This document shows positions 1,088 to 13,345 of a stretch of 64,000 bases of DNA, in pieces (positions within the stretch are counted from its first letter, which is position 1; each line of letters begins with the position of its first letter). The notes under the pieces were generated by a model. The model made no database searches. It was not told where the DNA came from and saw only the letters and a program-made list of their open reading frames with translations. Origin of the DNA: Aeromicrobium panaciterrae (lineage in GTDB: Bacteria > Actinomycetota > Actinomycetes > Propionibacteriales > Nocardioidaceae); contig NZ_JAVDWH010000001.1 of assembly GCF_031457275.1 (NCBI RefSeq), forward strand, positions 992,001 to 1,056,000, in the 5' to 3' direction. A program made the position numbers and the translations under genes.

Positions 1088-2974
1088 GTGGACATTGCGC
1101 TAACCCTCGTCACCCTGCTGGCGATCGCAGTTGCCGTGAGCGCAGCCGCCGGTCGGCTGGGGATGTCGGCGCCGCTCGTACTGATCGTCGTCGGGATCGT
1201 CGGGTCCTATCTGCCGTTCGTACCGGACTTCGAGCTGACTCCTGAGCTCGTGTTGATCGGGCTGTTGCCGCCGCTGTTGTATGCCGCCTCGATTCAGACC
1301 TCGCTGGTTGATTTCCGCGCCAACCGGCGGCCGATTGCGCTGCTCAGCGTTGGCTTGGTCCTGTTCACCACTGCCGGCGTTGGTTTGCTCGTGTGGTGGC
1401 TGCTCGACGTACCGCTGGCGGTCGCGCTTGCACTCGGTGCGGTCGTCGCGCCGCCGGATGCCGTGGCTGCGACGTCGATTGCTCGCCGCGTGGGACTCCC
1501 GCGCCGAGTCGTCACGATCCTTGAGGGCGAGAGCCTCGTGAACGACGCGACCGCGATCGTCACCTTGCGCGCGTCGATCGCTGCGATCGGCGGAACGGTC
1601 AGTGTCTGGGAGGTCGGCGCAAGCTTCGTGCTGTCCGCGATTGGAGGGGCGCTGATCGGCCTTCTTGTCGCGATCGTTGTCGGCAAAATCCGCAAGCTGA
1701 TTCAGGACGACGTCACCGATGTCGCTGTCTCGCTGCTGACGCCCTGGATCGCCTATCTCCCCGCGGAGGAGATTCACATCCCCGGAGTCGAGGGCCACCC
1801 ATCAGGTGTGCTCGCCGTGGTGGTCGCCGGAATCATCCTTGGCCACAAGTCACCGATCATTCAGTCGGCATCGTCTCGGCTCTTCGAGCGTACGAATTGG
1901 TCCACCATCTCGTACGTACTCGAGAACGCCATCTTCCTTCTGATCGGGCTGCAAGTGCGCTCGATCGTGGACGACCTTGGTGAGAGCACCGTGTCGGGCC
2001 CGCGCATTGCGGTCTCGTGCGCAGCCGTGCTTGCGGCCGTGATCCTGCTGCGAATCCTGTGGGTGTTCCCCGCGACGTACGCGGCACGCATGATCCCCAA
2101 GATCCGGGATGCCGAACCACGGCCTTCTCCTCGGGTCGTCTTCCTCGTGGCGTGGACCGGTATGCGCGGTGTCGTGACTCTGGCGGCGGTGTTCCTGCTG
2201 CCCGAGCACACCGAGAAGCGTGAGGTGTTGGTCCTGATGGCGTTTGTCGTCACGATCGGCACGCTCCTCATCCAGGGTCTGACGATCCCGACGCTCGTCC
2301 GTCTGCTCAAGGTGCCGGGGCCCGATCGGCATGAAGACCACCTGCAGGAGGCGACGGTCTATCAGGCGGTGGCCGACGAGGGCATGAAGTTCCTGGACGA
2401 AGAGGTCGAGGGCACGGTGTCTGATTCGGTCATGCACCGTCTTCGCGAGCGCGCTACGGATCGTACGAACGCCGTGTGGGAGCGACTTGGCGGCTCAGCG
2501 ACACCCAGCGCGCAGTACTCACGTCTGCGGGCGGCCATGCTCGCCCGTGAACGTGACGAGCTGCTGCGCATACGGGCGCTCGGAAGCGTGGACCAGTCGA
2601 TCCTGGCTCGTGTCATGAATGCGCTCGATGTCGAAGAGTCGATACTTGATCGCATGTACGAGGACGAGACGACGGCCAACCGCGAGACCGAGCTGCGGCC
2701 AACGTACGAGCAAGGCGGCCCGTGCGAGCACCTCTCAGCGGCAGTCGTCGTACCGCCACCCGTGACGCCGACGGGTTGCGAAGAATGCCTCGCGGACGGC
2801 GACGAGTGGGTGCACCTGCGTCTATGTATGGAGTGTGGCCACGTCGGTTGCTGTGACTCGTCGCCGAATACGCACGCAACCAAGCATTTCCACGAGTCGG
2901 GACACGCCGTGATGCGCAGCTTCGAACCCGGTGAAGCCTGGCGCTGGTGCTACATCGACGAAGTATTGGGCTGA
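1088..2974 (+). CDS. CPA1-family Na+/H+ antiporter with C-terminal UBP-type zinc finger
   Basis: Membrane cation/proton antiporter of the CPA1 (NhaP/NHE) family. About twelve hydrophobic segments fill residues 1-410, with the family motifs APPDAVA (121-127) and ESLVNDATAI (148-157, D153 the likely ion-binding acid). A cytoplasmic, partly helical region follows (about 415-540). The last 83 residues (from 546) are a cysteine/histidine-rich module (CEH, CEEC, CMECGHVGC, then several His up to GHAV) that matches the ubiquitin-hydrolase-type zinc finger (zf-UBP). In bacteria this finger is known mainly as an appendage with unknown ligand. GTG start at 1088; CAGACT lies at -12 to -7, so it may be leaderless. 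The 3' end overlaps the convergent membrane gene by 25 bp. Confidence 0.9.
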   Translation: MDIALTLVTLLAIAVAVSAAAGRLGMSAPLVLIVVGIVGSYLPFVPDFELTPELVLIGLLPPLLYAASIQTSLVDFRANRRPIALLSVGLVLFTTAGVGLLVWWLLDVPLAVALALGAVVAPPDAVAATSIARRVGLPRRVVTILEGESLVNDATAIVTLRASIAAIGGTVSVWEVGASFVLSAIGGALIGLLVAIVVGKIRKLIQDDVTDVAVSLLTPWIAYLPAEEIHIPGVEGHPSGVLAVVVAGIILGHKSPIIQSASSRLFERTNWSTISYVLENAIFLLIGLQVRSIVDDLGESTVSGPRIAVSCAAVLAAVILLRILWVFPATYAARMIPKIRDAEPRPSPRVVFLVAWTGMRGVVTLAAVFLLPEHTEKREVLVLMAFVVTIGTLLIQGLTIPTLVRLLKVPGPDRHEDHLQEATVYQAVADEGMKFLDEEVEGTVSDSVMHRLRERATDRTNAVWERLGGSATPSAQYSRLRAAMLARERDELLRIRALGSVDQSILARVMNALDVEESILDRMYEDETTANRETELRPTYEQGGPCEHLSAAVVVPPPVTPTGCEECLADGDEWVHLRLCMECGHVGCCDSSPNTHATKHFHESGHAVMRSFEPGEAWRWCYIDEVLG

Positions 2975-3420
2975 CGATCCGGAGCAGTCATGATGCGCAG
3001 GGCGATGATGCCGAGCGCAAGGCCGTGACCCAGCACCAACGTCTTGCCGTGATCGATCGTCGAGGCGATGAGGCGACCAATGAAGCCTGCATCGTCGGAG
3101 AGCCCGTTGACCTGGATCGCGTCGGCCCAGAACATCGAGACCACAGCCAACGCGCCAATCATCAGAGCTGGTGGGAACACGCCAGCCTGGAACAGCGACT
3201 CGAGATCGACCGCCATCGCGACGGTCACGACAATCAGTACGAAGCTGAGTGAGAACAGGAAGCCGAGGCTGCCGTCGGTCAGGTCGAGACCGGTGAGCGC
3301 CGCCATGGCGATGACCGCGATGCGGATCGCCTCGCGAGCATTCAGATCGTGCCCTGCACGCTGTGGGCGTGAGGGCGACTCGACCGGGTGCGCGTCCATA
3401 CCTTCATCATGCGCCGCCAC
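2950..3420 (-). CDS. small integral membrane protein (DUF6542-like)
   Basis: 156-residue protein with a charged, proline-containing N-terminal stretch of about 30 residues followed by four hydrophobic segments (roughly 31-50, 53-72, 80-98, 125-145). It resembles small actinobacterial membrane proteins of the DUF6542 type; I cannot assign a function. The ATG at 3420 has CAAAGT at -12 to -7 on its strand, which fits a leaderless start; an internal Met at residue 8 is the alternative. It is convergent with the antiporter gene, overlapping its last 25 bp, and divergent from the acetyltransferase gene at 3459 with only 38 bp between starts. Confidence 0.65.
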   Translation of the reverse strand: MAAHDEGMDAHPVESPSRPQRAGHDLNAREAIRIAVIAMAALTGLDLTDGSLGFLFSLSFVLIVVTVAMAVDLESLFQAGVFPPALMIGALAVVSMFWADAIQVNGLSDDAGFIGRLIASTIDHGKTLVLGHGLALGIIALRIMTAPDRQPNTSSM

Positions 3421-3458
3421 GATGACACTTTGGGGGAGGCGACTGATAGGAACGACAC

Positions 3459-3995
3459 GTGGGAATCATTGAGACCGAGCGCCTGATCCTGCGTCCCTTC
3501 ACGCACGATGACGCTCCACGGGTGCTCGACATCCAGAGCCGTCTCGACGTAATCCGGTGGCTGAGTGATCCGCCGTTCATACCGATGCCTGATCTCGACG
3601 AGGCTCGCGCCTGGATCGACAACTGGAACACCGGCGACATTGGGCCGCTCAACTGCGGATATGCGATCGAGGTACGCGACACCGGAGTTCTGGCCGGCAC
3701 CGCGATGATCGTCCAGGTTCCCTACCCGATCAACGACGAACGGCAGGTCGGCTGGCATCTGCACCCCGACTCCTCGGGTCACGGCTATGCGACCGAGGCG
3801 GCAGTCGCCGTGATCGACCAGGCGTTTGTGGCGGGACTCGATGAGATCTGGTGCGGGATGTACCCCGACAACGAGGCGTCAGCGCGTGTCGCTCGCCGAC
3901 TCGGTCTGGTCGAACGCGGACTCGTCCCGGATCCCTGGTACCTGGGCTATTCGCGCTACTTCACAGCCACCCGCGACGAGTGGGCCAAGCGATGA
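3459..3995 (+). CDS. GNAT family N-acetyltransferase (RimJ/RimL-like)
   Basis: 178-residue GNAT acetyltransferase of the Acetyltransf_3 (RimJ/RimL) type. The N-terminus IETERLILRPFTHDDAPRVL is the usual first beta strand and helix of this subfamily. The acetyl-CoA region is the segment GWHLHPDSSGHGYATEAAVA (about 91-110), followed by GMYPDNEASARVARRLGLVE, the typical C-terminal helix. The substrate is unknown. GTG start at 3459 with TAGGAA at -12 to -7. The stop codon overlaps the ATG of a paralogous GNAT gene (ATGA), so the two are translationally coupled. Confidence 0.88.
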   Translation: MGIIETERLILRPFTHDDAPRVLDIQSRLDVIRWLSDPPFIPMPDLDEARAWIDNWNTGDIGPLNCGYAIEVRDTGVLAGTAMIVQVPYPINDERQVGWHLHPDSSGHGYATEAAVAVIDQAFVAGLDEIWCGMYPDNEASARVARRLGLVERGLVPDPWYLGYSRYFTATRDEWAKR

Positions 3996-4525
3996 TCGAG
4001 ACTGAGCGCCTCGTCTTGCGCCTCTACACGCATGACGACGCCGATCGGCTGTTCGACATGATGCGTCGCATCGAGGTGGCCAAATGGAGTGGCGAGGGCG
4101 TTCCGATGAAGACGATCGACGAAGCTCACACGCGAATCGATCGGATGCCGAGCCGCGCGGGCGACCGCCCCGAAGCCGGCGTGTTCGCCGTTGAACGCAA
4201 GGACAACGGTGTCGTCGCCGGCATGGCTGTGCTTGTGCCCATTCCTGCGAGCAAGGATGTCGACCGCGAGGACGAGGAGATTGGGTGGCACCTACATCCT
4301 GATTCGTGGGGCAATGGCTTCGCCACCGAGGCGGCAAGCGCGCTCGTTGCCCGGGGATTTGCGGCCGGTTTGACCGAGCTCTACGCCGTGACTAAGCCCG
4401 ACAACGGTCCGTCGCAGGCCGTTTGTCGGCGGCTCGGTATGGAGGACCTTGGCCTGCGTACGGACTGGTACGACCAAGAGCTCCGTGCCTTCTGTCTGAA
4501 GGGTCCCGGCGAGCCCGTAAAGTAG
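3992..4525 (+). CDS. GNAT family N-acetyltransferase, paralogue of the preceding gene
   Basis: 177 residues beginning IETERLVLRLYTHDDADRLF, clearly related to the gene upstream. It has the same acetyl-CoA loop (GWHLHPDSWGNGFATEAASA) and the same C-terminal NGPSQAVCRRLGMEDLG segment. I start it at 3992, where ATG overlaps the previous TGA; a longer in-frame reading to 3851 would add sequence with no GNAT character and run inside the preceding gene. The pair looks like a tandem duplication that has diverged in the middle third, where substrate specificity usually lies. The ychF gene follows after 6 bp, and a TAAAGT hexamer over the stop codon may be its own -10. Confidence 0.87.
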   Translation: MIETERLVLRLYTHDDADRLFDMMRRIEVAKWSGEGVPMKTIDEAHTRIDRMPSRAGDRPEAGVFAVERKDNGVVAGMAVLVPIPASKDVDREDEEIGWHLHPDSWGNGFATEAASALVARGFAAGLTELYAVTKPDNGPSQAVCRRLGMEDLGLRTDWYDQELRAFCLKGPGEPVK

Positions 4526-4531
4526 CCCCTT

Positions 4532-5620
4532 GTGGCTCTCTCCATCGGCATCGTCGGACTCCCCAACGCGGGCAAGTCGACCCTTTTCAATGCCCTCACC
4601 AAGAACAACGTCCTAGCGGCCAACTACCCGTTCGCGACGATCGAGCCCAACGTCGGAGTCGTCGGCGTACCCGACGCCCGACTCGGCAAGCTTGCCGAGA
4701 TCTTCGGCTCGGAGAAGATCCTCCCCGCGACAGTGCAGTTCGTCGACATCGCCGGCATCGTCCGTGGTGCATCCGAAGGCGAGGGGATGGGCAACAAGTT
4801 CCTCTCCCACATCCGCGAATCCGACGCGATCTGCCAGGTCACCCGGGTGTTCCGCGACGAGGATGTCACACACGTCGACGGCGACGTGAACCCCGCCAAC
4901 GACATCGAGACGATCTCGATCGAGCTGGCTCTGGCCGACCTTCAGACTCTCGAGAACGCGTTGCCGCGCCTCGACAAGGAGTCGCGCAAGGACAAGTCGC
5001 TCGTGCCCGCGTACGAGGAAGCCAAGAAGGCCAAGGAGTCGCTCGAGGCAGGCGTCGGTGTCCAGAAGGCCGGTCTCGATCTCGAGCTCCTACGCGATCT
5101 GCACCTGATGACCTCGAAGCGCTTCATCTACGTCTTCAACTGCGATCACGATGAGCTCAGCGATGAGTCGATCAAACAGCAGATGAGCGCGCTGGTCGCG
5201 CCGTCCGAGGCGATCTTCCTCGACGCCAAGTCCGAAGCCGAACTCGTCGAGCTCGGCGATGACGAAGAGGCTGAGGCCATGCGTGCCGAAATGCTGGCTG
5301 ACATGGGTGTCGACGAGCCCGGTCTCGACGCACTTGCTCGCGTGGGCTTCGACACGCTCGGTCTGCAGACGTACCTCACCGCAGGCCCCAAGGAGTCGCG
5401 CGCGTGGACGATCCCCAAGGGTGCAACTGCTCCGCAGGCTGCTGGCGTGATCCACACGGACTTCGAGCGCGGCTTCATCAAGGCTGAGATCGTCTCGTTC
5501 GCTGATCTCGTCGATGCTGGTTCCATGAACGCTGCCAAGTCGGTCGGCAAGGTTCGCATGGAGGGCAAGGACTACGTCATGACAGACGGCGACGTAGTCG
5601 AGTTCCGCTTCAACGTCTGA
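4532..5620 (+). CDS. ychF: redox-regulated ATPase YchF
   Basis: Universally conserved Obg-family P-loop NTPase that prefers ATP and associates with ribosomes. The 362-residue length is standard. The N-terminal G domain starts with GLPNAGKSTLFNAL (about 8-21), followed by the DIAGIVRGASEGEG switch region. The usual NKxD specificity motif is replaced by NCDHDE, as expected for an ATP-preferring YchF. A helical insertion follows, and the C-terminal TGS domain ends in MTDGDVVEFRFNV. GTG start at 4532, with no obvious Shine-Dalgarno; TAAAGT at 4518-4523 could serve as a -10. Confidence 0.96.
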   Translation: MALSIGIVGLPNAGKSTLFNALTKNNVLAANYPFATIEPNVGVVGVPDARLGKLAEIFGSEKILPATVQFVDIAGIVRGASEGEGMGNKFLSHIRESDAICQVTRVFRDEDVTHVDGDVNPANDIETISIELALADLQTLENALPRLDKESRKDKSLVPAYEEAKKAKESLEAGVGVQKAGLDLELLRDLHLMTSKRFIYVFNCDHDELSDESIKQQMSALVAPSEAIFLDAKSEAELVELGDDEEAEAMRAEMLADMGVDEPGLDALARVGFDTLGLQTYLTAGPKESRAWTIPKGATAPQAAGVIHTDFERGFIKAEIVSFADLVDAGSMNAAKSVGKVRMEGKDYVMTDGDVVEFRFNV

Positions 5621-5657
5621 GCTCCGGCTCGGGTGCTTACGCCAGCGACGTGAGCCG

Positions 5658-6722
5658 TCAGTCTGTGCTTGCGGGAAGTCCCAGTCCCCGACGTATCTTC
5701 GCCCCATCGGATGCGCCCCTGTCGCCCGCTTTGCGAAAGTCCGTACCGAAAGCGGCCAAGTACGTGGCGGAAGTCTTCGCTGACAGGGCCCTCTTCGTAG
5801 CGTCGTAGACCACGGCCTCTTGCCGCGCAAGATCGCTGATGAGTCCTGCGACCAATGACGGCCACGAATAGTTCTTCAGACACCTGATTTCCTCGTCGAG
5901 ACCTTGTGCGTACACCGTGGTGGCCTTCTTCAGCGCTGACCATGAAATTGCGCCGGCGTTGTGTCTGCTGATCGCAGTGTTCAAAGCGTCCCCGGCCTCA
6001 TTCGCCGGTTTGACACAACTTAGGTAGTGCGCCGCAGCCTCGTGATCGATGACGAAGAAGTTCATCGGCTTTCCGCTTGCTGCCGCATGCTGTGGCGTTT
6101 CAAGAACTGTGGCGCGCACCGTGATCGCTCCGGCATTGGTCGTTGGCGCTCTGAGCGTGAATGAGCCGTTGTTGGCCGTCGTCACGGGGGCACCGACAGA
6201 AACCCAGGTTGTCCCATCGACGGTTGCTTCGAGCGTCACCGCACGGCCTAGTTCTGCTGGCGAGACAGTGCCGATGACAGTCACCTTCTCGTCGAGCGCT
6301 ACTTCGGTCGGTCCTTCTAGATGTGACTTGATTGCAGTCGCTTCTAGAACGGTGATCGCTAGTTCGCGAGAGACGACCGTTTTGTCTCCATTGACCAGGA
6401 CGACCCGAAGGCTGGTTTTTACTCGAGAGCCGGGCTTGTAACTGAACGTGTAGGCGCCTGAACTGTCGGTGATTGTCGCTTGTCCGGTTGGTTCGAACGC
6501 GGACCCTCGTGTCGACGACTGAAGTTCGACCTCCAGACCGGCCACTTTGTCGCTGAATGCGCCAGACAGTGTGATCGTGTCGGCAGGTCCGACCTTGGAT
6601 CTTGACGCGACGAATGACACGGATTGGCCTGCGCAAGCCGAGAGCGAAATCAGTAGGAGCAGTGCCAGGAGCGAGTTTCGGGTGTTGCGGCCTGTGCGGA
6701 GCAGGTCAAGCGAATGCGGCAT
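5658..6722 (-). CDS. predicted lipoprotein with two Ig-like domains
   Basis: 354-residue secreted protein. A basic N-terminus (RTGRNTRN) leads into a hydrophobic stretch LLALLLLISLSAC with a lipobox, giving a lipid-anchored Cys near residue 31. Two beta-rich repeats follow (about 35-125 and 130-220). Both resemble bacterial Ig-like or carboxypeptidase-regulatory-like domains (LSGAFSDKVAGLEVELQSS; IGTVSPAELGRAVTLEATVDG). The C-terminal third is helical, with two cysteines. The function is not recognised. I start at the ATG at 6722, preceded by AGGGGA at good distance; an upstream in-frame extension to 6764 would cross the inverted repeats at 6734-6756. It is divergent from the HprK-like module. 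Confidence 0.7.
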   Translation of the reverse strand: MPHSLDLLRTGRNTRNSLLALLLLISLSACAGQSVSFVASRSKVGPADTITLSGAFSDKVAGLEVELQSSTRGSAFEPTGQATITDSSGAYTFSYKPGSRVKTSLRVVLVNGDKTVVSRELAITVLEATAIKSHLEGPTEVALDEKVTVIGTVSPAELGRAVTLEATVDGTTWVSVGAPVTTANNGSFTLRAPTTNAGAITVRATVLETPQHAAASGKPMNFFVIDHEAAAHYLSCVKPANEAGDALNTAISRHNAGAISWSALKKATTVYAQGLDEEIRCLKNYSWPSLVAGLISDLARQEAVVYDATKRALSAKTSATYLAAFGTDFRKAGDRGASDGAKIRRGLGLPASTD

Positions 6723-6733
6723 TGGCACGTCCC

Positions 6734-6756
6734 CTACGAGTCGTAGAGACTCTACG
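6734..6756. promoter_or_regulatory. overlapping inverted repeats between lipoprotein and HprK-like gene
   Basis: Two perfect dyads share one arm. CTACGA-G-TCGTAG occupies 6734-6746, and CGTAGAG-A-CTCTACG occupies 6742-6756. In DNA this looks like a pair of overlapping operator sites. In the lipoprotein mRNA it would form two mutually exclusive hairpins immediately 5' of the AGGGGA ribosome binding site. It sits 11 bp upstream of the lipoprotein ATG and about 100 bp upstream of the divergent module. Confidence 0.5.
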
Positions 6757-6847
6757 CGGCACATACGACCACCGATCCGGAGTTCGCACTTGTGATTCCA
6801 CGGAGCTCTCAGTTCGGTGGTTCCTCAGTGCTTTCCGTGGATCCACC

Positions 6848-6853
6848 TAGGGT
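6848..6853 (+). promoter_or_regulatory. -10 element of the HprK-like module, leaderless
   Basis: TAGGGT ends 6 bp before the ATG at 6860. This favours that ATG over the overlapping GTG at 6857 and suggests that the module's mRNA has no leader. No good -35 box was found. Confidence 0.45.
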
Positions 6854-6859
6854 TGTGTG

Positions 6860-7582
6860 ATGCAGGTTTCTCTGGAGGTGCTCGACGTTCGGATCGACGT
6901 TGAGCTGCCGACCTCCGTTGACCCGCGCGTGAAGGATCAGGTGGAGTGGGCGTGGCAGCACTGCCTAGCTCGGTCCGGTGGGCTTGCGGCGCGACGTGTG
7001 GCCTGGCGGGGACACGACAGCGCAACTGGCATGCACCTGCTGTCGCAGGACGTGACCCGCGCTGCGATTGATGCGCGGGCCGGGCAGGCGGTGATGCTTC
7101 ACGCTGCGGCCATCGCCAACCCAGACTCCGGCGCGGCACTCGCCGTTGTTGGAGCTTCGGGCGCCGGCAAGACAACCTGGGTACAGGCCAATGGCGGCAA
7201 CCGTCGTTACATCTCCGATGAAGCTGTATTGATCACGAGCGATCTCCAGATATTTGGCATTCCCAAACCGCTCTCGCTCGGTCACTACGGCATCAAGGAG
7301 CAGGTCGCTCCCGTCGAGTTCGGATTGAGTGAGGCGAACGGAACCGAATACCTCGCTGGCCTGTGGATTCTCGATCGCGACGACGCTGCAACAACCCTGC
7401 TCGAGGACGTCGAGATTCTCGATGCCTTGCCGCTGCTCGCGCAGCAGGCTTCCTACCTGAACGCACTTGCCCAACCGCTCCATCAGTTGGCTGCGGTCGT
7501 CTCGGGAAGCGGTGGGCTAAGACGAGCCCGCTATCGCGAGGCGTCTGACCTGTCCGAACTCGTTGCGGAATCATTGGCATGA
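6860..7582 (+). CDS. HPr kinase-like (HprK-related) P-loop protein
   Basis: 240-residue protein resembling the kinase domain of HPr serine kinase, as in the HprK-related kinase families found with PqqD-like proteins and in some lasso-peptide clusters. Visible motifs: LHAAA at 80-84; Walker A GASGAGKT at 98-105; the HprK-type metal/phosphate motif as YISDE at 117-121; and the family hallmark PKPLSL at 135-140. It lacks the HPr-binding C-terminal signature of true HprK, and no HPr gene is nearby, so the substrate is probably not HPr. It starts at 6860 on promoter spacing. The stop overlaps the start of the PqqD-like gene (ATGA), the first link in a four-gene coupled operon. Confidence 0.75.
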   Translation: MQVSLEVLDVRIDVELPTSVDPRVKDQVEWAWQHCLARSGGLAARRVAWRGHDSATGMHLLSQDVTRAAIDARAGQAVMLHAAAIANPDSGAALAVVGASGAGKTTWVQANGGNRRYISDEAVLITSDLQIFGIPKPLSLGHYGIKEQVAPVEFGLSEANGTEYLAGLWILDRDDAATTLLEDVEILDALPLLAQQASYLNALAQPLHQLAAVVSGSGGLRRARYREASDLSELVAESLA

Positions 7583-7839
7583 GAGTTACGCGTGGCGCAC
7601 TCAGTGACATCTTCGAACACGGAAACGAATCCGTGGTGATGGCTGGATCGAACGTTGTTCGGCTCTCCGAACTTGCGACGTTTCTGGTTGGTGGACTGAC
7701 GGTTTCGCGCACCAGCGACGAACTCGCCGCGATGCTTGTCGATCAATTCGGTGAACCAGTCGACGCGGACGCGCGTGATCTGGTCGAGCGCATGCTCAGT
7801 CAACTCGCAGCACTCGAAATCGTGGAAATCGACCTATGA
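7579..7839 (+). CDS. PqqD family protein (RiPP recognition element-like)
   Basis: 86 residues with the PqqD/RRE fold pattern. Short beta strands come first (MRVTRGALSDIFEHGNESVVMAG), then the characteristic VVRLSELATFLVGGL segment. Two helices with SDELAAMLVDQFGEPVDADARDLVERMLSQLAALEIVEI close it. PqqD-like domains normally bind leader peptides or partner proteins. Here the protein probably serves as an adaptor for the kinase-like protein encoded just upstream. Starts and stops overlap by 4 bp on both sides (7579-7582 and 7836-7839), so tight stoichiometric coupling is expected. The sequence is too divergent to predict a specific leader peptide. Confidence 0.72.
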   Translation: MRVTRGALSDIFEHGNESVVMAGSNVVRLSELATFLVGGLTVSRTSDELAAMLVDQFGEPVDADARDLVERMLSQLAALEIVEIDL

Positions 7840-8720
7840 CAGAACGACCATTGGCAACCAGCGAAGCTCGGGATGTCTTGGCAGCGATGGTGGCCCGGGT
7901 GGCGCAGGACGCCCATCTTGATTTGCTGTTAGTCAAGGGACCATCGCTCTCGTTCCACGGCCTCCGCGCCGAACGCGGCTGGGGTGACGTCGACATCCTG
8001 GTGCGACCTGACCACGCGGGACCCTTGCGTCGGCTACTCGAAAAGTCCGGGTGGGCCGCGTTCAACGAGCCGTCGCAGTACCCGTTGATCGCCGTCCCAC
8101 ACGCCATCACGCTGATCCATCCCCGCTGGCACACCGAGATTGATCTCCATACGTTCTTCCCCGGCTGCTACGCAGATCCCGAATCGACCTTCACGCAACT
8201 TTGGGAAGAGCAGACATGCATTGAGTTGGCGCATCAGCCCGTGCCGTGCACCGGTCTCATTGGATCGGCGCTGATCGCGGCGGTGAACTTGGCCCGCATG
8301 CCGATGGAGCCTCGAAGTCTCGTGGAGGTGGAGCAATGGAATGCTGCCGTCTCCCGATGGTCTGACGCCGACAAGTCTTCGCTCACTCGCCTTGCTGCTG
8401 ACTGCCGTGCTTCTGAAGTGGTGGCGCCTCTGTTCGCCACGGTCGACATATCGCCACTTGATCATGGCGCTATGACCAAAGACGACTGGGCAGACTGGCG
8501 GAATCGCGTGTTGGGCGGAGGGCGCACCGGCTACGGGTGGTGGGTCGCCTTTCGGCGTGCTCCACTTCGTCGCAAACCACGGCAGCTGATGCGGGCCCTC
8601 TCATTTGACCCGCAAGCCGCAGCGGGTGGGCTGCCGCAGCCCACAGGTTGGTCCCGTTTGCGCCAGGTAGCGCGTCGGATCGGTCAAGGAATCGCGAAGG
8701 CCGTCAGGTGGAACTCATGA
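7836..8720 (+). CDS. nucleotidyltransferase family protein (NTP_transf_5-like)
   Basis: 294-residue protein of the uncharacterised nucleotidyltransferase family often seen beside HprK-related kinases and PqqD-like proteins. The N-terminal third shows LLLVKGPSLSFHGL (about 29-42) and then GWGDVDILVRP (about 48-58). Its D-x-D pair is the metal-binding motif of the polymerase-beta superfamily. A later acidic residue in HTEIDLH (about 104-110) could be the third carboxylate. The C-terminal half is helical and ends in a basic tail. The substrate is unknown. It is coupled by ATGA overlaps to the PqqD-like gene upstream and to the small gene downstream. Confidence 0.72.
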   Translation: MTERPLATSEARDVLAAMVARVAQDAHLDLLLVKGPSLSFHGLRAERGWGDVDILVRPDHAGPLRRLLEKSGWAAFNEPSQYPLIAVPHAITLIHPRWHTEIDLHTFFPGCYADPESTFTQLWEEQTCIELAHQPVPCTGLIGSALIAAVNLARMPMEPRSLVEVEQWNAAVSRWSDADKSSLTRLAADCRASEVVAPLFATVDISPLDHGAMTKDDWADWRNRVLGGGRTGYGWWVAFRRAPLRRKPRQLMRALSFDPQAAAGGLPQPTGWSRLRQVARRIGQGIAKAVRWNS

Positions 8721-8971
8721 TCAATCCCAGCAACGAGTGGCGTATCCGAAGTGACGTGGCCTGGGTTGGCGATGAAGTTCGCGTCATTGCGGCCCATACG
8801 TCTCCACCCGACGCTGACGGGCCCCGCATTCTTGAGGGCGCAACCTCGTGGGTGTGGCTCCGCTTGTCGGCCCAAGAAGTCGTTGCGCTCGGCGATGGAG
8901 TCGCCGAGCAGGCACTCATCAACCTGGCGCTGAAGGCGCTCGCCGACGCCAAATTGATCGTTCCCGCCTAG
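8717..8971 (+). CDS. small PqqD-like protein
   Basis: 84-residue protein, last gene of the coupled module; its ATG overlaps the TGA of the nucleotidyltransferase gene. The pattern WRIRSDVAWVGDEVRVIAAH, then ATSWVWLRLSAQEVVAL, then a helix ending ALADAKLIVPA, follows the strand-helix-helix plan of PqqD-like domains. I read it as a second, degenerate RRE-like protein. That assignment rests on pattern only. The gene ends in a short hairpin and faces the convergent Tat-exported proline-rich protein gene 12 bp away. Confidence 0.55.
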   Translation: MINPSNEWRIRSDVAWVGDEVRVIAAHTSPPDADGPRILEGATSWVWLRLSAQEVVALGDGVAEQALINLALKALADAKLIVPA

Positions 8972-8976
8972 CGGGA
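8962..8976. terminator. short hairpin between convergent genes
   Basis: TCCCGC-CTA-GCGGGA gives a perfect 6-bp GC-rich stem with a 3-nt loop spanning the TAG stop of the small PqqD-like gene. It lies between two convergent genes and could act bidirectionally. No U-tract follows, so it is at best a weak intrinsic terminator. Confidence 0.35.
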
Positions 8977-8983
8977 GTGAACT

Positions 8984-9301
8984 CTATTTGGGCTTGAAGA
9001 TCTTGGGTGGGACCTTGTCAGGCAGCACGATCTGGGGCCTGCCAGGTCCCGGAGGGATGCCCGGGATCGGCGGCGGCACAATCTTGATGGCGGGAGGCAC
9101 CGGAATTTGGGGGAGGTTTGGCTCCGGAATCGGGAGAGGGTTTTCAGCGGGAATCAGCGGGTCCGGGATCGTCAAGGTTGCGGCAGCCGCAGGCGGAGCG
9201 ATGGTTGCTAGCGCAACAAACGGAGCCGTCCATGCGGTGGCGCGCAACATGGCGCGCCGAGAGAGGAGCGGATCGTCTCGCCTGCTCTCTGATTCACCCA
9301 T
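8984..9301 (-). CDS. small Tat-exported proline-rich protein
   Basis: 105 residues. The N-terminus carries a twin-arginine signal: SRRAMLRAT at 14-22, a hydrophobic stretch TAPFVALATIA, and a likely cleavage site after the alanine run ending at 41. The predicted mature part is only about 64 residues. I count 23 prolines in it, mostly in IP, LP, VP, PP and EP pairs, and it has no Cys, His, Tyr, Trp or Ser. Such a chain should be extended and unstructured. ATG start at 9301 with TACCAT at -12 to -7 on its strand, so it has its own promoter. Function unknown; the product ends KIFKPK. It is convergent with the HprK/PqqD/nucleotidyltransferase module. Confidence 0.65.
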   Translation of the reverse strand: MGESESRRDDPLLSRRAMLRATAWTAPFVALATIAPPAAAATLTIPDPLIPAENPLPIPEPNLPQIPVPPAIKIVPPPIPGIPPGPGRPQIVLPDKVPPKIFKPK

Positions 9302-9307
9302 GGACCA

Positions 9308-9313
9308 ATGGTA
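9308..9313 (-). promoter_or_regulatory. -10 element of the proline-rich Tat protein gene
   Basis: On the minus strand TACCAT ends 6 bp before the ATG at 9301, the leaderless arrangement. No Shine-Dalgarno is present between them. Confidence 0.45.
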
Positions 9314-9369
9314 GCGGGCTGGGTTGGGCTGACCACTCCAAATGCACCGAGGCGGACGCGGGGCCAGTC

Positions 9370-10308
9370 CTAGCTACCAGAGCGCTGGACGCTGGCGAGG
9401 AACGGCAGCAACACCTTGAGGAACGCATTCGGCTTCTCAATCATTGGACTGTGTCCAGATCCCTTGATGATGTGGGGCTTGAGCCCGGACTTCTCGTAGC
9501 GGGCAACGTTCGTCGCAGTCGGGGTCAGGTCATCCCGATCACCCCAGATGACAAGCACGGGCTTGCCAAGTGCGACGAGTTGATCAGCGACGGGCTCCTT
9601 CGCATTCATCTGATCCCCTGCTTTCGACTTGCAGACGCCGCGATAGGTCAGTTGCTCCAACGAACGGTGGGCCATTGCCGGCACCTTGAAGTTCTTCGCG
9701 AATCCAGTCTGGAGGGAGCCCTCGACCATGGCGTCCCAGTGCTTGAAGCGATCGATGGACTGCCCCATGACCGGCCAGCAGGCGGCCCGAGCCAGGATGG
9801 GCAGGGCGCGAAGTCCGGGACCGCCGAACGTGTCCGAGATGGCGACTCCATCGACGAGGCCAGGCTTTCGTTCGGCCACTGCAAGGGCCACGTGTCCGCC
9901 CATCGAGTGACCAACCAAGGTCACGTGCTGCAAGCCGAGCTCGGCCAAGGCGTTGATGACCGCGGAAGCTTGACCGGCTGCACCATAGGCATCAGTGTCG
10001 GTGGGCGCCTCCGAGCCGCCGTGCCCCACCAGATCGATGGCGACGACCCGGCGACCGGTCGCCGTCAGCGCCGGTATCACGTACTTCCACCACTCGATCG
10101 ATGCTGAATAGCCGTGCAGCAGCACGATCGCATCATTGGCCGAGGCTGGACCGTACTCGCGCACATTGAGGTCCGGCCCCTCGAGCTTCAGAACGTGACC
10201 ACCTGCGAAGCTTTCGGCAGCACGGGAATCCCGGTTGACGAGGAAGGTGTTGATGAGGAGCAGCGCAGCGATGGCGACGAAAGCGACAGCGACTCGGCGG
10301 CGGGTCAT
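9370..10308 (-). CDS. secreted or membrane-anchored alpha/beta hydrolase
   Basis: 312-residue alpha/beta hydrolase. An N-terminal hydrophobic stretch (VAVAFVAIAALLLINTFLV, about 5-23) acts as a signal anchor, so the catalytic domain probably lies outside the membrane. The oxyanion motif LLHGYS (about 64-69), the nucleophile elbow GHSMGG (about 133-138), an acid in WGDRDDL and the histidine in GSGHSPM complete the triad. The substrate is unknown; esterase or lipase activity is the default inference. The ATG at 10308 has TAGCCT at -12 to -7 on its strand. It is divergent from the methyltransferase gene at 10440. Confidence 0.85.
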   Translation of the reverse strand: MTRRRVAVAFVAIAALLLINTFLVNRDSRAAESFAGGHVLKLEGPDLNVREYGPASANDAIVLLHGYSASIEWWKYVIPALTATGRRVVAIDLVGHGGSEAPTDTDAYGAAGQASAVINALAELGLQHVTLVGHSMGGHVALAVAERKPGLVDGVAISDTFGGPGLRALPILARAACWPVMGQSIDRFKHWDAMVEGSLQTGFAKNFKVPAMAHRSLEQLTYRGVCKSKAGDQMNAKEPVADQLVALGKPVLVIWGDRDDLTPTATNVARYEKSGLKPHIIKGSGHSPMIEKPNAFLKVLLPFLASVQRSGS

Positions 10309-12862: not shown

Positions 12863-13345
12863 TCATCGCGCGTTGCATTGGATTCCGACCTTGTGCATCC
12901 TGTCGATCTCAGTCACGCCCCCGTGGACCGTCTCCAAGTACTGGTCGTTCGCAGCTTCGAATCGCTCTTGATCGCCTGTCTGAGCCGCAGCAAAGACGGG
13001 GGCGTCAGCTGCATCGGAGAATCGCCGGTATGCATCGAACGCGTCAGCTGCTTTGCGGTCTGCCGCTGTCACCCGGATTGATTCGACTTCGGCGTCGAAG
13101 TCCTGAATGGCGGCGACCAGTTTCTCGTGCTTGGTCAAGAACTCCTCGGTTGACACCACGTTCCCGATGTCGAACGCCAAGACCTGAGTGAGGAGCTTCC
13201 CGCACAGGGCGTTGACTTGTGTGACGTAGTCAGCCTGGACGGACGGAGAGGGCTTTGAGGGCGCGTCATTCGAGTCGGTACATCCGGTTACCAAGGCTGC
13301 CAGGAGAAGTGCTGCCCCCAGCGTCAACCGCCATCGTTGGCTCAT
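12863..13345 (-). CDS. small predicted lipoprotein
   Basis: 160-residue protein with an N-terminal signal (LTLGAALLLAALVTGC) ending in a lipobox, so the mature protein is probably lipid-anchored at C22. A low-complexity Ser/Pro linker follows, and then an all-helical domain of about 120 residues (VTQVNALCGKLL ... EFLTKHEKLVAAIQDFDAEVES). Two further cysteines could form a disulfide (one in NALCGK, one four residues from the C-terminus). No family name recognised. A TAGCCT hexamer on the minus strand at 13411-13416 could be the -10, which would leave a leader of about 60 nt. It precedes the haloalkane dehalogenase gene by 7 bp. Confidence 0.65.
   Translation of the reverse strand: MSQRWRLTLGAALLLAALVTGCTDSNDAPSKPSPSVQADYVTQVNALCGKLLTQVLAFDIGNVVSTEEFLTKHEKLVAAIQDFDAEVESIRVTAADRKAADAFDAYRRFSDAADAPVFAAAQTGDQERFEAANDQYLETVHGGVTEIDRMHKVGIQCNAR

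Follow-up and report, generated by a model that had tools for sequence, protein, structure and literature searches.

Organization of the locus

The window, that is, the whole 64,000-nucleotide stretch of the Aeromicrobium panaciterrae genome analysed here, carries four open reading frames (ORFs) on the forward strand, with a 4-bp overlap at each junction when the last ORF is given the start at 8717. An earlier, sequence-only reading of this DNA had described such a four-gene set, and its ORFs were confirmed in the sequence. A fifth gene lies on the opposite strand, its stop being 12 bases beyond the last stop of the module. The features are:

6860..7582, plus strand: HprK/PEPCK-fold P-loop kinase-like protein, 240 aa (from profile, 17-sequence alignment and structure model)
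7579..7839, plus strand: PqqD-like peptide-binding protein 1 (PqqD1), 86 aa (PF05402; 4-bp overlap with the kinase gene)
7836..8720, plus strand: PF14907 nucleotidyltransferase (NT), 294 aa (KG...DxD...DxH motifs kept)
8717..8971, plus strand: PqqD-like protein 2 (PqqD2), diverged, 84 aa (from a profile of the relatives' PqqD2)
8984..9301, minus strand: predicted Tat-type exported protein, candidate substrate, 105 aa, with a proline-rich mature part
9176..9301, minus strand: AWxxP-type Tat signal of that protein (LSRRAMLRATAWTAPFVALATIAPPAAAAT; signal profile E 2.3e-15, the sequence itself being a row of the profile)

The kinase ORF is taken to start at the ATG at 6860, with a GTG at 6857 as a possible alternative. 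Two other ORFs of the window may be mentioned: a secreted or lipoprotein-like ORF (5658-6764, minus strand), divergent from the module, with weak Ig-like (Big) matches under the cut-off; and a Na+/H+ exchanger (1088-2974), the C-terminal UBP-type zinc finger of which scores above the Pfam cut-off.

Proteins of the module

Both motifs attributed to the gene 1 product, the Walker A sequence GASGAGKT and PKPLSL, are present, and the GK of Walker A, a DE pair and KPL are invariant among 17 aligned sequences, that of the window included. The structure model (pLDDT 91.8) aligns with PEPCK 2pc9_B (Z 14.4, rmsd 3.8, 227 residues aligned), while the HprK/P chains 2qmh, 1ko7 and 1kkm stand below PEPCK in the list (Foldseek E 0.016-0.073). 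On this model the protein, with its Walker A motif, is predicted to belong to the PEPCK/HprK fold superfamily. Compared by sequence with solved structures, it matched over the P-loop stretch only, among the best 60 of 195 matches. Neither a Pfam HPr-kinase model nor TIGR00679 was among the matches listed for gene 1, and the protein is not assigned to HPr kinase/phosphatase proper. A clear homologue (E 5e-17 or better) was found in 18 of 148 related genomes, the window's own included, and weak matches in 14 more. A single Enterobacterales locus (L032), all that was picked up when contigs were scanned with one kinase sequence, matched weakly over 44 residues and was left out. On one contig (G146:C14, locus L045) the kinase, the nucleotidyltransferase and Wzc each occur twice in mirror image, with the kinases about 58 kb apart; the arrangement reflects either an extensive inverted duplication or an error of assembly.

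The assignments of gene 2 as PqqD-like and of gene 3 as a DxD nucleotidyltransferase were borne out, the former scoring 25.8 bits against PF05402 (PqqD; cut-off 23.4) and the latter 39.6 bits against PF14907 (NTP_transf_5; cut-off 31.2). The suggested filing under HPr-rel-A fared less well. Exactly the pair of that grouping heads the NCBIfam matches of genes 1 and 2, but the scores are far under the cut-offs (HprK_rel_A, TIGR04352, 25.7 bits against 200 and over residues 71-144 only; PqqD_rel_X, TIGR04353, 19.7 bits against 35), and the module adds PF14907, a second PqqD and a partner with a Tat signal.

As to gene 4, Pfam and NCBIfam are silent (E<=10), and its probable reading as a second PqqD-like gene comes by way of its relatives: it scores 22.4 bits against a PqqD2 profile made from the copies of nine relatives, gene 4 itself excluded. 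Two members of that profile reach 39.8 and 41.5 bits in Pfam (PF05402 cut-off 23.4), and the PqqD2 copies of three relatives (L033, L041 and L110) pass PF05402. Among the 46 kinase loci read, a non-random sample, many of which were fetched since the signal described below lay near, a PqqD gene is present in 44, a PqqD-kinase fusion in 19, and a fusion of PqqD2 to a low-molecular-weight protein tyrosine phosphatase (LMW-PTP) in two relatives. A PqqD-nucleotidyltransferase fusion had been suspected in G502 from an N-terminal extension of about 100 residues; neither Pfam nor the PqqD profiles detected a PqqD domain there.

The nucleotidyltransferase motifs KG, DxD and DxH are invariant in 13 aligned sequences. 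Its structure model (pLDDT 82.1) is nearest to MenT1 (Z 15.3, rmsd 3.1, 176 residues), followed by ANT(2'') and, lower, FKRP; the predicted fold is what gene 3 would have in common with these proteins, whereas a search of the PDB by sequence gave no match at E<=1.

An N-terminal signal on predicted exported proteins of no common family

The Tat-type neighbour has an RR motif, a hydrophobic stretch and an AxA site, which by motif and by eye make up a predicted Tat signal (MGESESRRDDPLLSRRAMLRATAWTAPFVALATIAPPAAAAT). The 105-aa protein matched no Pfam or NCBIfam family at E<=10. A similar signal occurs on one or two proteins in 10 of the 18 stretches compared, namely L033, L035, L036, L037, L039, L041, L043, L046, L049 and the window, and in L033, L037 and L043 signal proteins lie between module genes. 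A signal profile was built from 11 aligned signals, in which two Arg, the Trp, two Pro and one Ala are invariant; the consensus is SRR[TS]xxxGxAW[ST]VPxV...PAFAAS.

Measured from the RR onwards, the Tat-type proteins that carry this signal are 91-449 aa long, and a genome often has several of them. No family was common to the mature parts of the carriers scanned, and no C-terminal motif was seen by eye in 41 rows. Weak Ig-like, TIG or fimbrial matches to mature parts, and NHL/ScyE-like repeats in the carrier of L126, were all under the cut-offs; the signal protein of L110, a locus of family f23, has an LPXTG anchor above the NCBIfam cut-off. One signal on mature parts of no common family is, as with PEP-CTERM, what a signal for sorting or modification would look like.

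Co-occurrence of the kinase and the signal

In a first test, the signal was matched (E<=0.01) in 18 of 18 genomes with the module and in none of 13 genomes of the same genus without it; three other genomes gave no match in one case and weak matches in two (E 4e-4 and 5e-4). Across 293 genomes of the order, with cut-offs of E<1e-15 for the kinase (69 genomes, which places the module beyond chance) and E<1e-6 for the signal (70 genomes), both were present in 67, the kinase only in two, the signal only in three and neither in 221. Fisher's test gives 9e-60 by genome and 2e-9 by genus, the latter figure being the safer one because the genomes are related; by genus, both were present in 15 of 37, the kinase only in one and the signal only in none. 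These counts leave out weak matches to the kinase (G021, G024, G026, G080, G117 and G163) and to the signal (G080, G116, G117, G119, G125, G129, G135, G145, G161, G181, G187 and G209); with weak matches kept (E<=1e-6 and E<=1e-3, respectively), the numbers become 69, 6, 13 and 205. Seven of the 67 double positives had donated profile rows (G000, G059, G070, G124, G126, G136 and G144), and after their removal the signal was present in 60 of 62 kinase genomes.

The exceptions can be described individually. In G287, which has the kinase only, the kinase gene is broken by a stop and PF05402 is not matched; in G318, also kinase only, two weaker signal proteins, scoring under the cut, lie near a divergent kinase. 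The three signal-only genomes (G177, G249 and G252) have no PF05402 match at E<=0.01, and G177 and G249 have no module near the signal.

Family f39, which lies outside the order and had contributed to neither profile, provided a replicate. Of its 150 genomes, from 85 genera, 12 had both, none the kinase only, one the signal only and 137 neither (Fisher 8e-17 by genome, 2e-11 by genus), weak signal matches in G661, G722, G732, G738 and G758 having been dropped, which when kept raise the signal-only count from one to six. The signal-only genome, G698, has only a different HprK/NT/PqqD set (locus L190, G698:C5:73000-92000, about 3282-10192), which by eye looks like a lasso-peptide set. Beyond the order, the rest of the class gave 25 kinase matches (E<=1e-10), of which 12 coincided with the signal (E<=1e-5): the signal accompanied all four strong kinases versus 8 of the 21 divergent ones, the 13 kinase-only cases were all divergent (E 1e-18 or worse), and three signal genomes had no kinase. 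Kinases closely related to the window's are tightly associated with the signal, more distant ones less so.

The number of signal matches ranges from 1 to 39 per genome, the 39 being in f39; since each profile was scored against a limited number of candidates in every genome, copy numbers of both kinase and signal are lower bounds, and a copy may have been missed. The window's genome has a single signal-profile match at E<=0.01, the neighbour of the module.

The nucleotidyltransferase follows the signal less closely. After 21 weak matches had been dropped, 59 of the order's 69 kinase genomes held a strong PF14907 homologue (E<1e-40), against none of the remaining 224. The signal is present in each of the 59 and in eight more kinase genomes without a strong NT, four of which have a weak NT match adjoining the kinase. 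The kinase covers 67 of the 70 signal genomes versus 59 of 70 for NT. Strong NT is absent from 10 of the 69 kinase genomes, with a weak NT match adjoining the kinase in G150, G223, G258 and G315, and in the variant of family f23 (L110-L116) the gene after a PqqD2-HprK arrangement is, in NT's place, one that by eye resembles a glycosyltransferase gene; NT may therefore not be obligatory.

The sequence-only reading had proposed a comparison of neighbourhoods, and it is the AWxxP signal class that this comparison found to co-occur with the module. The contrary prospect it had named, of proteins with no conserved co-occurrence, is contradicted by the kinase and signal counts. It is very likely that the signal and the module are functionally paired.

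Linkage and the polysaccharide setting

The two are also linked on the chromosome. Of 62 genomes, 18 have a signal no more than 5 kb from the kinase; with signal places drawn at random in 4-Mb genomes, 0.39 would be expected. Seven of these 18 were themselves a source of profile rows owing to this nearness, and without them the count is 11 of 55. Within 45 kb, the count is 37 of 62 (152 typed signal places). In family f23, the signal is at most 0.7 kb from the kinase match in all eight genomes having both, five further kinase genomes having no signal match, and it adjoins PqqD2 in the three loci in which the gene was called (L110, L111 and L113). In g7 genomes (e.g. G260:C1:359401-371446 and G326:C1:2108055-2120131; many genomes of one genus), several signal proteins are clustered about 30 kb from the kinase.

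Module neighbourhoods are often polysaccharide loci. A Wzc-like gene is found in 13 and an LMW-PTP gene in 11 of 18 (17 loci plus the window), and in 29 and 26, respectively, of the 46 kinase loci read; dTDP-sugar and LCP genes are frequent as well. One could argue from this setting that the module regulates or builds a surface polysaccharide, and that the signal proteins merely live there, their signal going unrecognised. However, in the window's genome the module and its signal protein stand alone, the nearest Wzc match being more than 200 kb away. Furthermore, what the carriers have in common is an N-terminal signal motif, and living in the same environment would not by itself account for that. 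As a control, Wzc was looked for in 34 genomes and was present in 32, among them 12 of the 13 same-genus genomes that have no module; since Wzc is present with or without the module, polysaccharide synthesis in general does not account for the signal pattern. We consider such an indirect link unlikely.

A model for the module

The module had been described as a modification device whose target is not known. A device that modifies peptides or proteins is still the best reading, whereas a candidate target is now visible in the adjacent Tat-type protein; the module probably acts on signal-bearing exported proteins. RiPP pathways use PqqD-type domains to bind leader peptides, and since PqqD is present in nearly all kinase loci read, is in some of them fused to the kinase or to LMW-PTP, and has the AWxxP signal as the only co-occurring leader-like element found, PqqD is likely to be the reader of the signal. 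That the kinase modifies the signal-bearing proteins is a reading we favour by a modest degree.

We infer the following course of events. Before the carrier leaves the cytosol, its N-terminal AWxxP signal would be recognised by the PqqD domains, and the HprK-like enzyme would phosphorylate the carrier, most likely on the strongly conserved Ser two residues past the predicted signal-peptidase site. The PF14907 nucleotidyltransferase would then put a nucleotide or a sugar on the carrier's phosphate, as has been suggested for PsmN in lasso peptides. The folded, modified carrier would exit through Tat and, in many relatives, might join the surface polysaccharide produced by the Wzc/LMW-PTP locus in which the module lies. 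Taken as a whole, a system in which a leader guides the modification or sorting of one subclass of Tat-exported proteins has, in our estimate, an even chance of being correct; a Ser-phosphate-sugar on the carrier is conceivable, with the balance somewhat against it.

The candidate residue comes from the signal sequences. In 65 of 78 of them, Ser occupies position +2 past the AxA site, a count in which one protein was parsed twice and several non-Ser cases are mis-parsed; the profile used for it ended before +2, the loci, however, having been found with a longer profile. In a crude control, +2 was Ser in 7 of 34 other AxA proteins of the same loci (p 3e-10), a set that includes some membrane proteins and, through a mis-call, one signal protein. 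The window's own signal protein has Thr at the matching position. A precedent exists in pseudomycoidin, where, according to passages of PMC9266682, PsmK phosphorylates the C-terminal Ser, PsmN is needed for a hexose on that Ser, and PsmN may nucleotidylate, a host enzyme then adding the sugar.

The same parts might instead serve export proofreading: PqqD would act as a chaperone holding the AWxxP signal, and a kinase/NT switch, working on the signal or on PqqD, would time Tat export, leaving the mature protein unmarked. The signal is indeed the only element found common to the carriers, with its Trp and Pro invariant in the 11-row alignment and no mature-part family among those scanned. However, the +2 Ser, which belongs to the mature part, is conserved too, and proofreading has no obvious need of a nucleotidyltransferase. 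We doubt this explanation.

Relation to known systems and implications

Lasso-peptide tailoring resembles the module in its enzymes. There too, the kinase and nucleotidyltransferase act with a PqqD-type recognition element. Passages of PMC9266682 describe a kinase and a nucleotidyltransferase as tailoring enzymes (paeninodin PadeK; pseudomycoidin PsmK/PsmN), and three further lasso-peptide papers (PMC7533575, PMC8498205 and PMC10368454) mention both HPr kinase and PqqD. The module could accordingly be imagined as a set of orphan lasso or RiPP tailoring genes whose precursor lies elsewhere, and the PqqD2 of one relative (L033) has a lasso-type PqqD profile as its top NCBIfam match, under the cut-off. 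However, as had been noted for the cyclase, neither the B2 protease nor the asparagine-synthetase-like cyclase was found by Pfam among the 10 flanking proteins scanned, the neighbour and the lipoprotein-like ORF (ORFs 2950-3399 and 12863-13345 left out), and a crude search for a precursor near the module gave unconvincing short ORFs only. The partners that do co-occur are Tat-type proteins instead, and with the co-occurrence seen in the order and in f39 the lasso explanation becomes very improbable.

The MenT1-like fold predicted for NT raises the thought of a toxin inactivated by the kinase, for which TakA/TglT, a kinase inactivating a nucleotidyltransferase-type toxin, would be the model, but two PqqD proteins, an exported partner, the polysaccharide setting, an NT that is the less constant member of the module and PADLOC matches at chance level only (two, at E 0.02 and 0.06) leave this hardly credible.

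A parallel in principle is the PEP-CTERM/EpsH (exosortase) system, in which, according to PMC1569441, one machinery serves many targets with only a short sorting signal in common, a tie to exopolysaccharide loci exists, and phylogenetic profiling was the route of discovery. The module is unlike it in that its signal is N-terminal and its components are a kinase, PqqD proteins and a nucleotidyltransferase, with no membrane transpeptidase; by eye, the window's partner also has no helix of the kind found in the PEP-CTERM C-terminus (PEP motif, TM helix, basic tail). As a tentative and rather doubtful proposal, a PqqD-read AWxxP Tat signal could mark carriers for Ser phosphorylation and phospho-glycosylation before export, the carriers then arriving at the surface folded and with the phosphodiester-linked sugar anchoring them to, or priming, exopolysaccharide, which would amount to an actinomycete counterpart of PEP-CTERM/exosortase made from RiPP-type parts.

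HprK-like/PqqD gene sets have been named in databases, and no target was found for this module's kind. No description of the kinase/signal pairing was found in the open-licence PMC literature searched, which does not imply its absence from print. The pairing yields candidate substrates (at least 39 in one genome), a motif, a candidate residue and minimal genomes, such as that of the window, in which just one module and one candidate target make the question testable. If the model is true, leader-guided tailoring, familiar from small peptides, would reach complete exported proteins as well.
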